Shown in pieces: positions 39,824 through 60,201 of a DNA stretch of 64,000 nucleotides; the first letter of the stretch is position 1; every line of letters starts with the position of its first letter. The DNA is from a virus. The notes beneath the pieces were generated by a model. The model was not told the DNA's origin. It saw only the letters and a program-made list of their open reading frames with translations, and searched no databases. The position numbers and the translations under genes were made by a program. The stretch covers positions 50,809 to 114,808 of the IMG/VR virus record IMGVR_UViG_3300044642_000074; one strand, written 5' to 3'.

Positions 39824-40423
39824 ATGAATCTTGAAAAACTTAAAGGCCACGTGCCGGATTCTGTTATTGCACAGATTCCTGGTGTGATTGATAGCTTTGC
39901 TGTTAATACCCCACTTCGTTTGGCTCATTTTTTAGCTCAGTGTGGTCACGAGTCTGGTGGTTTCAGGCTTACGCAAGAGAATCTAAACTATTCAGCTAAA
40001 GGTCTTATGGGAATCTTCAAGAAGTATTTCCCTACAGAAGCTTTAGCTAATGCTTATGCACGTAAACCTGAAAAGATTGCTAACCGCGTTTATGGTTCAC
40101 GCATGGGTAATGGTCCCGAAGCTAGTGGTGAGGGTTACAAGTTCCGCGGTCGTGGTTATATTCAATTGACTGGTAAACAGAACTATACTGCATTTGATGC
40201 TACAGTACCTGAAAGTATTGTAGATAATCCAGACTTAGTGGCTACTAAATATCCTTTAGCTTCTGCTGCATGGTTCTGGAGCAAGAACGGTCTTAACACT
40301 CTTGCTGACAAAGGAGCTTCTGATATTAATGTTACTGCTATTACAAAGCGTGTAAACGGTGGTACAATCGGTTTGACAGATAGAATTAAACACTTCAAAG
40401 AATATCATAACCTGCTGGTATGA
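39824..40423 (+). CDS. GH19-type endolysin (chitinase-like muramidase), 199 aa
   Basis: AHFLAQCGHESGGFRLTQENLNYS contains the GH19 catalytic Glu (E43 in HESGGF), followed by NRVYGSRMGNG and the hallmark KFRGRGYIQLTGKQNY, ASAAWFWS and the C-terminal ITKRVNGGTIGLTDR. This is a standard phage GH19 lysozyme domain with no signal peptide, so it needs a holin to reach the cell wall. Full length for the family. It cleaves peptidoglycan at lysis. Confidence 0.93.
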   Translation: MNLEKLKGHVPDSVIAQIPGVIDSFAVNTPLRLAHFLAQCGHESGGFRLTQENLNYSAKGLMGIFKKYFPTEALANAYARKPEKIANRVYGSRMGNGPEASGEGYKFRGRGYIQLTGKQNYTAFDATVPESIVDNPDLVATKYPLASAAWFWSKNGLNTLADKGASDINVTAITKRVNGGTIGLTDRIKHFKEYHNLLV

Positions 40424-48004: not shown

Positions 48005-49487
48005 TTACTTTAGATATTTTATTGCCGTCAAAGACTATTACTTGTCCACGTTGAGAGTATTGCTTGATAACATCACCTTCAAAGTGGTTAAATCTAGCTC
48101 CTTCTAAGCCTATAAAGAAAGCTTTGTCTGTAAATACTCTGCAACGATCTTCTGCATCTGTAATAACTAGTGCGTTACGATCGTTTCTCTGGATACTACT
48201 TACAGCTGCGTCAATTGATGTACCGCCACAACAGTCTATCATAGAGATAGATATCAGATCATTGCGGTATTTCTTAACGCGGGTATCAAAGAGATATACA
48301 TCGTTTAGCATATCCATTTCTTTTAGCTTAGCTATCATAGATTTTGCAAAGTCTATACGGCTAATAGAATGACCATCATCAGTGCGGGACCCGCAACCGG
48401 ATGACATGGATCCGGATATGTCAACGTATACATCTATCTTACCTACAGCTTTAGTATCCTTTATTTGGATATCTTCTGCAAAGATCTTACGCAGTTTTGG
48501 ATGTAGTAGTTCATAGTCTTCAAGACCAGATACATCTTGAGCATTGAATAGATCCTCGTAGGTAGTGATCTTTCTGGATGAGAAATAACTAGCACTTTTG
48601 TCTAAGATCTTCTTGAGTTTTTCTTTCAATGCACCCATAGAGAGCTTGATATTAGCGAGTCTACCTGCTACTTGACGCATATAGTCAGGGCTTAGCTTAC
48701 TTGCTTCACCACCACCAGATTGGTTAGATTCATCAAACATTTTTTCTTGAATATCCTGTTCAAGATTTTCATCCATCATCTTACAAGTGTCTTGTGCATC
48801 CTGCATAGCACGATCCAGAGAGTTCTTACTAGTCTGGCTACCGAATATTTTGTCCATAGCTTTATCAGCGTCATCGTTGTTAAACTCTGAATCACCGTTT
48901 AACCCATTCATCAAGTCTTGTGCAGCATTCGGATCAACATACTCCATCTGGGTATATTGCATCAGATAGTACATCATCATGTTACGGGTAAATATGCTGG
49001 ATTTAAGGTTTGCACTTTCAGTCATGATCTTACCAACAGGATTGTTTGCTTTTTCCAGAAACTTAAACCTGGTATGGTTAGCATCAGTCCGCTCTTCAAA
49101 CTCAAGTTTATCTATCTTGTTGTAATACATCTTGAAGATATCATACTTAAGATGCTTAGGAAACTTATCATAGTTTTCTCTAAGCTTAGTATAAAACTTA
49201 CTAAAGTCTGGCTTCTTGTCATCTTGTATTTTTGCATACGCAGATGTCTTGCTAAAGTAGTCAAACTCTTTTTTGACTTTGGACTGATCTTGAAGTGATC
49301 CTTCTACTATACGAGAGATCTTACCTTCGTCTATATAGTGGACATAAGGTTTGATCAGGTCAGCTTTCTTATAAAAGTTTAGCTTACCAAATAAACCCTG
49401 GCTCTCTTTGTAGTGAGTTTGTATCTCACCTTTCTTTACTTTTTCAAGAATGGTATATACATTCTTGTATTGTTTACTTGAAGCCAT
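47979..49487 (-). CDS. VWA-domain protein (CobT-like partner of MoxR ATPase), 502 aa
   Basis: C-terminal VWA domain with a complete MIDAS: DISGSM (D356, S358, S360), GGTSID (T423) and ITDAEDRC. The N-terminal two thirds are helical with acidic, Gly-poor low complexity (MNGLNGDSEFNNDDADKAMD). The adjacent upstream gene is a MoxR/CobS-like AAA+ ATPase, and the pair forms the classic MoxR-VWA chaperone system, also seen as CobS/CobT-like pairs in other large phages. Probably used to remodel a phage or host complex. Confidence 0.85.
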   Translation of the reverse strand: MASSKQYKNVYTILEKVKKGEIQTHYKESQGLFGKLNFYKKADLIKPYVHYIDEGKISRIVEGSLQDQSKVKKEFDYFSKTSAYAKIQDDKKPDFSKFYTKLRENYDKFPKHLKYDIFKMYYNKIDKLEFEERTDANHTRFKFLEKANNPVGKIMTESANLKSSIFTRNMMMYYLMQYTQMEYVDPNAAQDLMNGLNGDSEFNNDDADKAMDKIFGSQTSKNSLDRAMQDAQDTCKMMDENLEQDIQEKMFDESNQSGGGEASKLSPDYMRQVAGRLANIKLSMGALKEKLKKILDKSASYFSSRKITTYEDLFNAQDVSGLEDYELLHPKLRKIFAEDIQIKDTKAVGKIDVYVDISGSMSSGCGSRTDDGHSISRIDFAKSMIAKLKEMDMLNDVYLFDTRVKKYRNDLISISMIDCCGGTSIDAAVSSIQRNDRNALVITDAEDRCRVFTDKAFFIGLEGARFNHFEGDVIKQYSQRGQVIVFDGNKISKVNEEGNTVV

Positions 49488-57207: not shown

Positions 57208-57555
57208 TTAGTATTTAATGTCAACTACTTCAGGAGATACGTATACACTTTTAACATTTTGAATATCTAGTGTAGTTCCGTTAACCATAAGTTTAAATCC
57301 TTGATTAGTAGATGACGGGTTAACGATAGTTTGATTTGTTGCTGCGTTCGTCTTTGTTTGACGTGTAGCTCTTTTTTTCCTCGCTGTTCTGTACAACGGT
57401 TGCAGGGCTCCTGCTTTTACTAGTTTCTTTCGGATATAAGATACTTGAGCATAACTTAATCCGGATACTGAAGCTACGTCACTTAGTTTTTCACCACTAA
57501 CCAGCATTTTATTTACTTCTTGCTGAGTGTTTGAGTCTACTTTACTTGTAAACAT
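57208..57555 (-). CDS. HTH regulator with NGT-type C-terminal domain, 115 aa (paralog A)
   Basis: N-terminal HTH (QQEVNKMLVSGEKLSDVASVSGLSYAQVSYIRKKLVKAG), a basic linker (RTARKKRATRQTK), and a C-terminal domain FKLMVNGTTLDIQNVKSV. The gene at 57.7-58.0 kb on the same strand has the same domain order and a related C-terminal domain (FIVNGTSVKISGHAKNI). Paralogous HTH pair beside the recombinase and attP. Confidence 0.72.
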   Translation of the reverse strand: MFTSKVDSNTQQEVNKMLVSGEKLSDVASVSGLSYAQVSYIRKKLVKAGALQPLYRTARKKRATRQTKTNAATNQTIVNPSSTNQGFKLMVNGTTLDIQNVKSVYVSPEVVDIKY

Positions 57556-57634: not shown

Positions 57635-57991
57635 TTAGAAGTTGATTTCCATGCTATCTTTATTTATGTTAATATTTTTAGCATGGCCAGATATTTTAAC
57701 AGAGGTTCCGTTAACTATAAAATTATACTCTTCAGAATTTATCTGTTGAGATGATGAGCTAATTTGTCCTGTAGCATTAGAAACTGGTCTTATTGTTTCT
57801 ACTGAACCAGTAGGACGTTTACCTCTAACTGAAGGGAATTTAAACCCATCAGCTTTAAACCTAGCTTTATAATTGTGTACGGATGAAATAGCTACTCCAA
57901 AATGTTTGGCTATATCTTCAGGAGAATTACCGTTTTTAACCATCAGTTTCATCTGTTCTACCTGATCATGTGAAAGACGTTTGTGTGCCAT
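57635..57991 (-). CDS. HTH regulator with NGT-type C-terminal domain, 118 aa (paralog B)
   Basis: HTH at about 4-40 (LSHDQVEQMKLMVKNGNSPEDIAKHFGVAISSVHNYKARF), Ser/Gln linker, C-terminal FIVNGTSVKISGHAKNININ. Exact -7 box TAATTTTG lies 25 bp upstream. The start chosen is the internal ATG (MAHKRLS); nine upstream codons are poorly supported. A divergent neighbour of attP/recombinase: candidate for lysogeny control. Confidence 0.72.
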   Translation of the reverse strand: MAHKRLSHDQVEQMKLMVKNGNSPEDIAKHFGVAISSVHNYKARFKADGFKFPSVRGKRPTGSVETIRPVSNATGQISSSSQQINSEEYNFIVNGTSVKISGHAKNININKDSMEINF

Positions 57992-58015
57992 AAAGTTCTT
58001 CTTTTTAGACCAAAA

Positions 58016-58023
58016 CAAAATTA
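58016..58023 (-). promoter_or_regulatory. Promoter -7 box TAATTTTG
   Basis: Exact TAnnTTTG, 25 bp before paralog B's ATG. Lacks the TAGAAC extension seen at early promoters. Confidence 0.6.
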
Positions 58024-58084: not shown

Positions 58085-58184
58085 TACGTAACTAATTGAT
58101 TATCAACGTGTGCATCTGCCTTACAAGCAGAGGGTCGGCGGTTCGATCCCGTCAACTCCCACTTGATTATCAATGAGTTACGTG
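58085..58184. other. Putative phage attachment site (attP)
   Basis: A 50-bp tRNA 3' half is flanked by 22-bp imperfect inverted arms (58085-58106 and 58163-58184; about 19 of 22 matched). Each arm contains TTGATTATCAA in direct orientation and TACGTAACT/AGTTACGTG at its outer end. A tyrosine recombinase starts 25 bp away. This is the classic layout of a tRNA-targeting attP core with arm sites. Confidence 0.7.
58112..58161 (+). pseudogene. tRNA-Val(TAC) 3' half in attP
   Basis: The anticodon stem TCTGC-CTTACAA-GCAGA (anticodon TAC), a T-arm GGCGG-TTCGATC-CCGTC and acceptor strand AACTCCC+A are present. No 5' half (GGGAGTT, D-arm) lies upstream, so it is a fragment. It would restore the 3' end of a host tRNA-Val gene after integration. 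Confidence 0.75.
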
Positions 58185-58208: not shown

Positions 58209-59078
58209 ATGTTTCTTACGAAATCTTTAGATTACGCTTTTTCAAAGCTAAAAGTGGAGCCACATACCCGAGAGTGTGTGGCTTCTTCATTGAAATATAT
58301 CCAACTTTCTATACGGGCTCTGGGATATAATCAGATAGAAGCACATCGTATAACGCGTAAGCATGTTCGTTTGATAATGGATCAGTGTGAGCAAGATAGA
58401 AATCTTTCTGCTCGTAGCTGGAACGCATACAGAACCTACCTGGGCATGCTGTTTGAACAGCTTATGGAGTACGAACTGATAGAAAATAATCCAGTATTAC
58501 AACTCCGTAAAAAGCAGGAAGATGAGGTTGTGCGTACCGTTCTGACGCTAGAACAAAGAAAATTACTGATAGAACACTTAAAAGAAACCGACCCGGTCTT
58601 CTTAAGATTCATACAAATCTTCTTTCACTCTGGTGCCAGGCGTACTGAGCTACTTGATTTACGTATAGAAAACATACACTTAGATAAAGGATATTACCAG
58701 GTCTTTGTCAAAAAGGGACGAAAGAAACGCTGGGTAACCAAGGTAATTAAGGAAATAGCCCTGCCCTTCTGGAGGGAACAGATTGGTAATCACATATCCG
58801 GTTATATATTTTCTATAGGCTTATTACCTGGTGGTAAACCTATTCGTCCAGAACAGGTTACCCGCAGGTGGAAACGTCATGTAAAGGATAAACTTGACAT
58901 TACAGCAGATCTGTATAGTTTGAAGCATCTTAATACAGATGAAGTATCATCTGAGCTATCTCTTATAGAGGCAGCTAAGCATAACTCTCACTCTGTGCAG
59001 ATGGCCAAAAAACATTATGCTGTTAATGAAACGTTGCGTGAATTGGAACGAGTCAGGAAGATCAAGAATGAGCTTTAA
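58209..59078 (+). CDS. Tyrosine recombinase/integrase, 289 aa
   Basis: N-terminal SAM-like helical core-binding region (YIQLSIRALGYNQIEAHRITRKHV), then FHSGARRTELLDLR with the box I Arg (R144/R145), KKGRKKRW, then YSLKHLNTDE (Y236, K239, H240) and KHNSHSVQMAKKHYAVN with H261 and nucleophile Y270. The usual HxLRH is YSLKH, a variant known in Bacteroidota recombinases. It starts 25 bp from the attP-like site and should integrate the phage at a tRNA-Val gene. Confidence 0.85.
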   Translation: MFLTKSLDYAFSKLKVEPHTRECVASSLKYIQLSIRALGYNQIEAHRITRKHVRLIMDQCEQDRNLSARSWNAYRTYLGMLFEQLMEYELIENNPVLQLRKKQEDEVVRTVLTLEQRKLLIEHLKETDPVFLRFIQIFFHSGARRTELLDLRIENIHLDKGYYQVFVKKGRKKRWVTKVIKEIALPFWREQIGNHISGYIFSIGLLPGGKPIRPEQVTRRWKRHVKDKLDITADLYSLKHLNTDEVSSELSLIEAAKHNSHSVQMAKKHYAVNETLRELERVRKIKNEL

Positions 59079-59607
59079 CAAACTTACTTAGTAATCCGCT
59101 AAACCTTCCGCTTATATTATCAGCACCTGACATAGTCTGATCTTCTATGAGATCAATTTGGTCTATTAGGTCACCTTCTTCGTTGACTTGTTTACCCATC
59201 CGTTTGATATCATAGACAATTGCTTCTGTCTTGTGTTCAAACTCCAGGTTGATAAACAGTACTTCCCTTTTGATTGGGAGATCCTTCCAGTTATCTGGAA
59301 GTTTATCATTTTTAGGTGATGTTCTGACCCAAGCTTCTGTTGCCCAGCCCACACCATAAGGTATAAACTTTTCATGTATACCGTCAGCTATACCAGGTAA
59401 GACAACATCAACGAAAGTATCTTTCATGTCTTCTGACTTTAGAAACTCGTCAGGTATGGGGATGTGGATGATAGCATCTTTATCATTACCATCTTTATGT
59501 GCACCGAATACGGTGACATGAGGAAATAGATCTCCTACAGAAAGCATATATCTCTTGATATTGTCAAGATATCCTTTCTTAATCTCTTCATATTTTTCTT
59601 CTGTCAT
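59062..59607 (-). CDS. Hypothetical protein, 181 aa
   Basis: Soluble, acidic protein with AHKDGNDKDAIIHIPIPDEF and EVLFINLEFEHKTEAIVYDIKRM, probably alpha/beta. It converges with the recombinase with 17 bp of overlap. Similar proteins of this size occur in phages of Bacteroidota, but no function is recognised. Confidence 0.7.
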   Translation of the reverse strand: MTEEKYEEIKKGYLDNIKRYMLSVGDLFPHVTVFGAHKDGNDKDAIIHIPIPDEFLKSEDMKDTFVDVVLPGIADGIHEKFIPYGVGWATEAWVRTSPKNDKLPDNWKDLPIKREVLFINLEFEHKTEAIVYDIKRMGKQVNEEGDLIDQIDLIEDQTMSGADNISGRFSGLLSKFVKAHS

Positions 59608-59616
59608 AAGATTGAT

Positions 59617-60201
59617 TTAGTCCCACCAGTGGTTTAGTTTATAATGGATGAGCTTCCAAAAGATACGCTCACACTTTTGTTGGTTGTAATCAGATACTCT
59701 AAAAGCTAGTTTTTCTGTATCTGCTACTTTTAGTTTGTATTTCTTACGAAGTTTCTTGGCCGTACGTTTATATTTAGCCAGATAGTCTTCAAGATTGTCT
59801 TCTAGGATGGTTAATTCCATAGTGACATACTCACCAGTAACATCAGCCGGTACAAAGTCGTATGACTTTTTGATGTACTCAGACATTTCAAGTTCATAGT
59901 AGCTGTGTTTAATACGTTCCAATAAGTTTAGAGCTAGAGTAATGTCTTTGTTAACAGCTTCTACGCCAACAAATCTGTTTGCGTTTACTAATTCTTCTCT
60001 TGTAAACTCAAGCTTTTTCTGAAGTATATCAGTTATAAAACTATGGTCCCAGTGTCTGTCTTTGTAGATGGTTGGCATCCATCTAATGATGTTACGCAGT
60101 CCTTGTAAGAACTGTTTAAGCCATATGGGTACATAACGTAACCATTTGTTTCTTTCCCAGGCTGAGTCTTTAGGAATTGGAAGTGGTTTATACTGTTTCA
60201 T
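59617..60201 (-). CDS. Conserved phage protein, 194 aa
   Basis: Contains LRNIIRWMPTIYKDRHWDHSFI, the 'IRWxPxIxKDRxWDxxF' pattern frequently found in Bacteroidota phage proteins. Helical middle and RVSDYNQQKCERIFWKLIHYKLNHWWD C terminus. Likely structural or regulatory; function unknown. Confidence 0.75.
   Translation of the reverse strand: MKQYKPLPIPKDSAWERNKWLRYVPIWLKQFLQGLRNIIRWMPTIYKDRHWDHSFITDILQKKLEFTREELVNANRFVGVEAVNKDITLALNLLERIKHSYYELEMSEYIKKSYDFVPADVTGEYVTMELTILEDNLEDYLAKYKRTAKKLRKKYKLKVADTEKLAFRVSDYNQQKCERIFWKLIHYKLNHWWD

Follow-up and report, generated by a model that had tools for sequence, protein, structure and literature searches.

The DNA at positions 58085-58184 of the window analysed here (a 64-kb stretch comprising bases 50809-114808 of the 114,808-bp record IMGVR_UViG_3300044642_000074) raises the question of whether a crAss-like phage can insert its genome into a host tRNA gene. 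The record carries the crAss-like markers capsid (PF23898 Crass_capsid, E 2e-30), terminase (phrog_6681) and portal (phrog_6547), and its named crAss-like relatives are distant, with capsid identities of at most 28%. The mode by which crAss-like phages persist is debated. Cultured crAss-like phages lack lysogeny genes (PMC8042965) and have been described as incapable of lysogeny (PMC8375218), while integrases have been mentioned for some crAss-like phages (PMC9980608). In the literature collection searched, no relevant paper linked Crassvirales with lysogeny and attP.

The locus contains the following features:

57208-57555, minus strand: paralogous helix-turn-helix (HTH) protein (HTH57208) in the left flank of the cassette, present too in some relatives without the integrase
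57635-58018, minus strand: small HTH protein of 127 aa (HTH57635) with a resolvase-like HTH, divergent from the integrase gene across the putative attP
58085-58106, plus strand: left (P) arm, TACGTAACTAATTGATTATCAA, paired as an inverted repeat with the right arm
58112-58162, plus strand: putative attP core, the 3' half of tRNA-Val(TAC), 51/51 to host tRNA-Val(TAC)
58115-58131, plus strand: predicted crossover region, the anticodon stem-loop TCTGC-CTTACAA-GCAGA; attP/attB identity starts immediately 5' of this stem-loop in every lineage
58163-58184, plus strand: right (P') arm, TTGATTATCAATGAGTTACGTG, inverted partner of the left arm, conserved in relatives
58209-59078, plus strand: tyrosine recombinase (integrase) of 289 aa (PHROG integrase, E 1e-23; PF00589, E 4e-8)
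59062-59607, minus strand: conserved right-flank gene (g59062), the end of which overlaps the end of the integrase gene
59617-60201, minus strand: conserved flank gene (g59617), the anchor for locating the same locus in relatives

The tRNA stretch runs from the anticodon stem through the T-arm and the acceptor strand to the discriminator A and one C, and its 5' boundary lies just 5' of the anticodon stem, the anticodon being TAC. ARAGORN detected no complete tRNA in the window, and the 5' half of tRNA-Val is absent at the site. As stated in a preliminary description of this DNA, the tRNA half is enclosed by 22-bp inverted arms, which are complementary at 19 of 22 positions; TTGATTATCAA occurs in each of them in the same, direct orientation. 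In a scan of the 64-kb window for 22-mers in inverted arrangement, matching at 19 or more positions and spaced by 20-80 bp, the arm pair was the only repeat found, and 20 Markov-1 simulations yielded none. The same description placed a 50-bp tRNA-Val 3' half at the site and a tyrosine recombinase 25 bp away; both elements are present, but the half measures 51 bp and the gap between the right arm and the integrase start 24 bp.

The 51 bp are identical, at 51/51 positions, to positions 26-76 of many host tRNA-Val(TAC) genes. A 46-nt pattern derived from the tRNA half gave at least 129 matches at no fewer than 119 bacterial loci. Among the matches listed, nearly all are from Bacteroidota, chiefly Chitinophagales and some Cytophagales (Spirosoma, Larkinella), and nearly all of the 129 listed sit inside intact tRNA-Val genes. 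Thus, an attB exists: Chitinophagales and their relatives possess intact tRNA-Val(TAC) genes whose 3' half matches the 51 bp exactly. The preliminary description had proposed to search host genomes for a tRNA-Val(TAC) with the same stretch, and such genes turned out to be widespread in Chitinophagales and to occur in some Cytophagales. The probable host is of the Chitinophagales type.

Integrase and attP were detected together in seven records including that of the window. The integrases of the six others, in four lineages, are 66-100% identical to the window integrase, i.e. near-identical in G401 and G402, 94% in G403, 79% in G404 and 66-67% in G405/G406. Compared with the window, the other lineages keep 47-49 of the 51 positions of the tRNA half and 14-18 of the 22 positions of the arms, with the left arm of G403-G406 keeping 17-18 of 22, while the upstream DNA is ~65% identical. 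A purine change in the T-loop of G403 and G404 (TTCAAAC) leaves the tRNA plausible. Among 20 records tested, the six that carry the integrase are the same six that carry the attP, and the other 14, long relatives with capsids 83-96% identical, carry neither the window-type integrase nor the attP. The preliminary description had considered that lytic relatives might contain this region with an intact tRNA; instead, relatives without the integrase are without the attP altogether. A further, partial left-arm copy in G403 (49114-49134), immediately ahead of a gene and devoid of the TGAT core, was set aside as a chance match.

Phages often carry tRNA genes, and the record contains a tRNA-Met, in line with the notion that the tRNA half is the remnant of a degraded phage tRNA gene or else a fragment present by chance or without function. 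However, the fragment ends at the anticodon stem in every lineage, is bracketed by symmetrical conserved arms and adjoins an integrase, and parallel cassettes in relatives (see below) hold matching pieces of other tRNAs; such an origin is scarcely credible. In total, the presence of attB in hosts, the co-occurrence of integrase and attP, and the conservation of core and arms bear out the attP proposed in the preliminary description, and we consider it very probable that this crAss-like phage uses the site as its attP and that its integrase recombines it with the 3' half of host tRNA-Val(TAC), most likely by strand exchange in the anticodon stem-loop.

Under this mechanism, the integrase would exchange strands within TCTGC-CTTACAA-GCAGA, where the overlap is likely the 7-bp anticodon loop at 58120-58126, and the phage-borne 3' half would be placed behind the host tRNA-Val 5' half, which would rebuild an intact tRNA-Val at one junction. 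The right arm and the integrase gene would come after the rebuilt tRNA-Val, and the displaced host 3' half would end beside the left arm.

The integrase contains the core-binding and catalytic domains and lacks the N-terminal arm-binding domain. Its structure model (pLDDT 80, pTM 0.51, weak at the C-terminus) resembles tyrosine recombinases such as lambda Int and the arm-less Brujita Int. The box II arginine is a lysine (SLKH; YSLKH) in the branch of the window integrase as well as in most bacterial homologues, and is kept in the L012 integrase; because of this lysine in its family branch, the activity of the integrase is not certain. In 396 Chitinophagales genomes, its six top homologues share 35-42% identity with it. 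All six begin shortly downstream of an intact tRNA gene (Arg, Met, His, Arg, His and Arg) and have the same orientation as that tRNA, as integration would be expected to leave them. Thus, the integrase family is a tRNA-site family. With regard to the divergent gene on the other side of the attP, full homologues of HTH57635 were found only at loci with integrases, with one truncated remnant elsewhere, and for this reason its product is a candidate for a regulatory or directionality role.

Both arms match the IHF consensus, the left arm with YAANNNNTTGATW at 58089-58101 and the right arm with WATCAANNNNTTR at 58168-58180. The consensus has five matches in the 64 kb, two of them in the arms, where 5.3 are expected by chance over the window, and by eye three of the other eight arm copies differ from it at one position. 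The arm motif does not occur elsewhere in the 114.8-kb record. HU/IHF-like genes were detected in six of the eight records of the group, and IHF genes have been reported as a signature of crAss-like phages (PMC7886860).

The arms might alternatively be lambda-like arm-type sites bound by the integrase itself, as could be expected of sites that are conserved and symmetrical around the core. However, the window integrase starts directly at the core-binding domain, and as an arm-binding domain is missing, the arms probably do not serve as its arm-type sites. Moreover, an N-terminal extension is present in the bacterial homologues, G405/G406, L012 and L013 and absent in the window, G403 and G404, and G405/G406 contain four TTAGAGG repeats around the attP; the extension is ~75 aa long in L010/L011, which have four extra TTAGAGG repeats. 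These repeats are absent beside the arm-less integrases, whereas the inner arms are kept in all lineages. In addition, bacterial homologues with long N-termini show, by eye, short direct repeats before the integrase gene. The simplest reading is that TTAGAGG would serve the N-terminal domain of the integrase and the inner arms another protein. Together, these observations make binding of the arms by the integrase unlikely, and support that the arms are more likely sites for a bending protein of the IHF/HU type, either host- or phage-encoded. We hold this reading of the arms with moderate confidence because it is based on a single contrast between lineages and a match to the consensus.

The gene order g59617, g59062, cassette, HTH57208, g56675, g56123, g55506, g54913 is kept in relatives, while the content of the cassette differs. 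In G405/G406, the cassette at this locus has the longer integrase. The L242 cassette contains a different integrase (Phage_int_SAM_5), a small excisionase-like protein and a tRNA-Asp(GTC) piece corresponding to the last 22 nt (3' end) of tRNA-Asp(GTC), a host tRNA. Among twelve long records tested that lack the window-type integrase, one (G411) has an unrelated integrase; its cassette (L244) holds this third integrase on the opposite strand and, at L244:2300-2620, a tRNA-Val(GAC) 5' half matching at 39/39 nt. In this crAss-like relative, it is thus the 5' half of a tRNA, not the 3' half, that lies beside the integrase. At thirteen further loci with the same gene order, the integrase is absent, and in L254 the C-terminal end of the HTH57635 gene directly follows g59062, i.e. 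a deletion scar. The best reading of this exchange and loss at one locus is that the cassette is exchangeable and losable, rendering some environmental crAss-like phages potentially temperate. A broader model, which we put forward tentatively and rate at somewhat below even chances, is that these phages share one docking locus at which unrelated integrase-attP cassettes targeting different tRNAs are swapped or deleted, so that closely related phages would alternate between a temperate and a strictly lytic lifestyle, and that the arm-less type would use the phages' own IHF at the symmetric arms.

The closest bacterial integrases adjoin tRNAs in bacterial chromosomes and the cassette is missing from many relatives, two features that would also fit a small mobile element or island residing in the phage, with the integrase and tRNA half serving its own mobility rather than lysogeny of the phage. 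This idea is very improbable. The record contains a single attP with both arms, and neither a second att copy nor an integrated junction was found within it; as the cassette is not flanked by att sites, recombination would integrate the whole phage genome. Moreover, three unrelated cassettes with an associated HTH gene family occupy the same locus.

The right-arm junction was not detected in any of 396 genomes sampled at the order level from Chitinophagales, and in IMG/VR its pattern was found only in the already known attP contigs; thus, the prophage junctions that the preliminary description had suggested looking for were found neither in the sampled host genomes nor in IMG/VR. Similarly, the capsid gene had no match in the 396 order-level Chitinophagales genomes. 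In 394 family-level genomes it had one match, in the contig G633:C26 (L343-L345), a 45-kb crAss-like contig in a Chitinophagaceae bin with an 86% identical capsid. Because this contig is phage throughout and has no host flank, it is a binned phage contig, and it is weak evidence for the host. The genomes sampled for lysogens comprised one genome per species and many MAGs. In every attP-bearing record the attP is intact, so the DNA of these records was that of free or replicating phage. The subset of proteins scanned yielded no lysogeny repressor.

A cassette that is the relic of a temperate ancestor and no longer works, in a phage as virulent as the cultured gut crAss-like phages, would account for the lack of lysogens in the genomes searched, as well as for the lysine in box II, the deletion scar in L254 and the absence of an integrase from most relatives with 83-96% identical capsids. 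However, the integrase has stayed intact, with 66-94% identity from one lineage to another, the tRNA half and arms are kept in surroundings that are only ~65% identical, and integrase and attP are gained or lost together; furthermore, the lysine is no fresh inactivation, because the bacterial homologues at tRNAs share it. We therefore regard a relic as improbable and favour a working integration site. As to the suggestion that this crAss-like backbone may be temperate, the attP on which it was based stands, lysogens and junctions were not found in the genomes searched, and lysogeny of the window phage is a prediction from sequence.

Several known systems resemble the one described here. Epsilon crAss-like phages (crAssE-Sib) have been proposed to be temperate based on repressor/anti-repressor genes and two incomplete Parabacteroides prophages (PMC11054128); by contrast, the case for the window phage, likewise crAss-like with a proposed temperate lifestyle, is the match between integrase, attP and attB in a distant environmental group (capsid 25% identical to csAssE-Sib). 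The mycobacteriophages Boilgate and Omega have a tRNA 3' half in attP, with cores of 43 bp and 44 bp, respectively (PMC10865867). As here, a tyrosine integrase adjoins the site, the tRNA is predicted to be rebuilt at attL and integration systems vary among closely related phages; by contrast, the present system, known from its sequence, belongs to a crAss-like phage of Bacteroidota and has an arm-less integrase and symmetric IHF-like arms. The arm-less integrase of Brujita (5vfz) uses an attP in the repressor gene without arm sites (PMC7194413). The window integrase shares with it the lack of the N-terminal arm-binding domain, and its structure model matches 5vfz, whereas the window attP is a tRNA half that lies between genes and is flanked by conserved arms. 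The nearest annotated phage integrase, that of Cellulophaga phage phi46:1 (KC821611), is 34% identical over 98%, but this phage is not among the crAss-like capsid matches. Finally, in tRNA-dependent lysogeny, a short core that does not rebuild the tRNA is combined with a phage tRNA of the same isotype (PMC10865867); this arrangement was rejected, as the 51-bp core is long and the record has no tRNA-Val.

Because attB and the integrase are named and there are probable hosts, lysogeny in the crAss-like order becomes directly testable, and the close relatives without the cassette are natural controls. Moreover, cassette swapping at one locus suggests a simple way in which phages of a largely virulent lineage could acquire and lose a temperate lifestyle.

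Two host genomes contain orphan tRNA-Val 3' halves (L044:5010 and L059:3364), each within ~170 bp of another gene that appears by eye to be Bacteroidota integrase-like. These halves, which may be remains or ends of integrated elements, suggest that other elements use the same tRNA-Val. In Limnovirga soli (L086:2611) and a Chitinophagaceae MAG (L054:4743), TGATWATCAAGCARTTAT directly follows tRNA-Val. These trailers, two of the 129 listed, contain the arm-like TGATWATCA and closely resemble the phage right arm; an attL or the origin of the arm was considered for them, but they lead straight into a terminator with no integrase after it.

Elsewhere in the phage, the region of structural and transcription genes contains a gene for a 1302-aa protein (G000:C1:42227-46135; L135:2227-6135) with an ADP-ribosyltransferase-like domain (PF03496) and DUF5872. 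The gene for a glycoside hydrolase 19 (chitinase/lysozyme-like) at 39824-40423 of the window likely encodes an endolysin.
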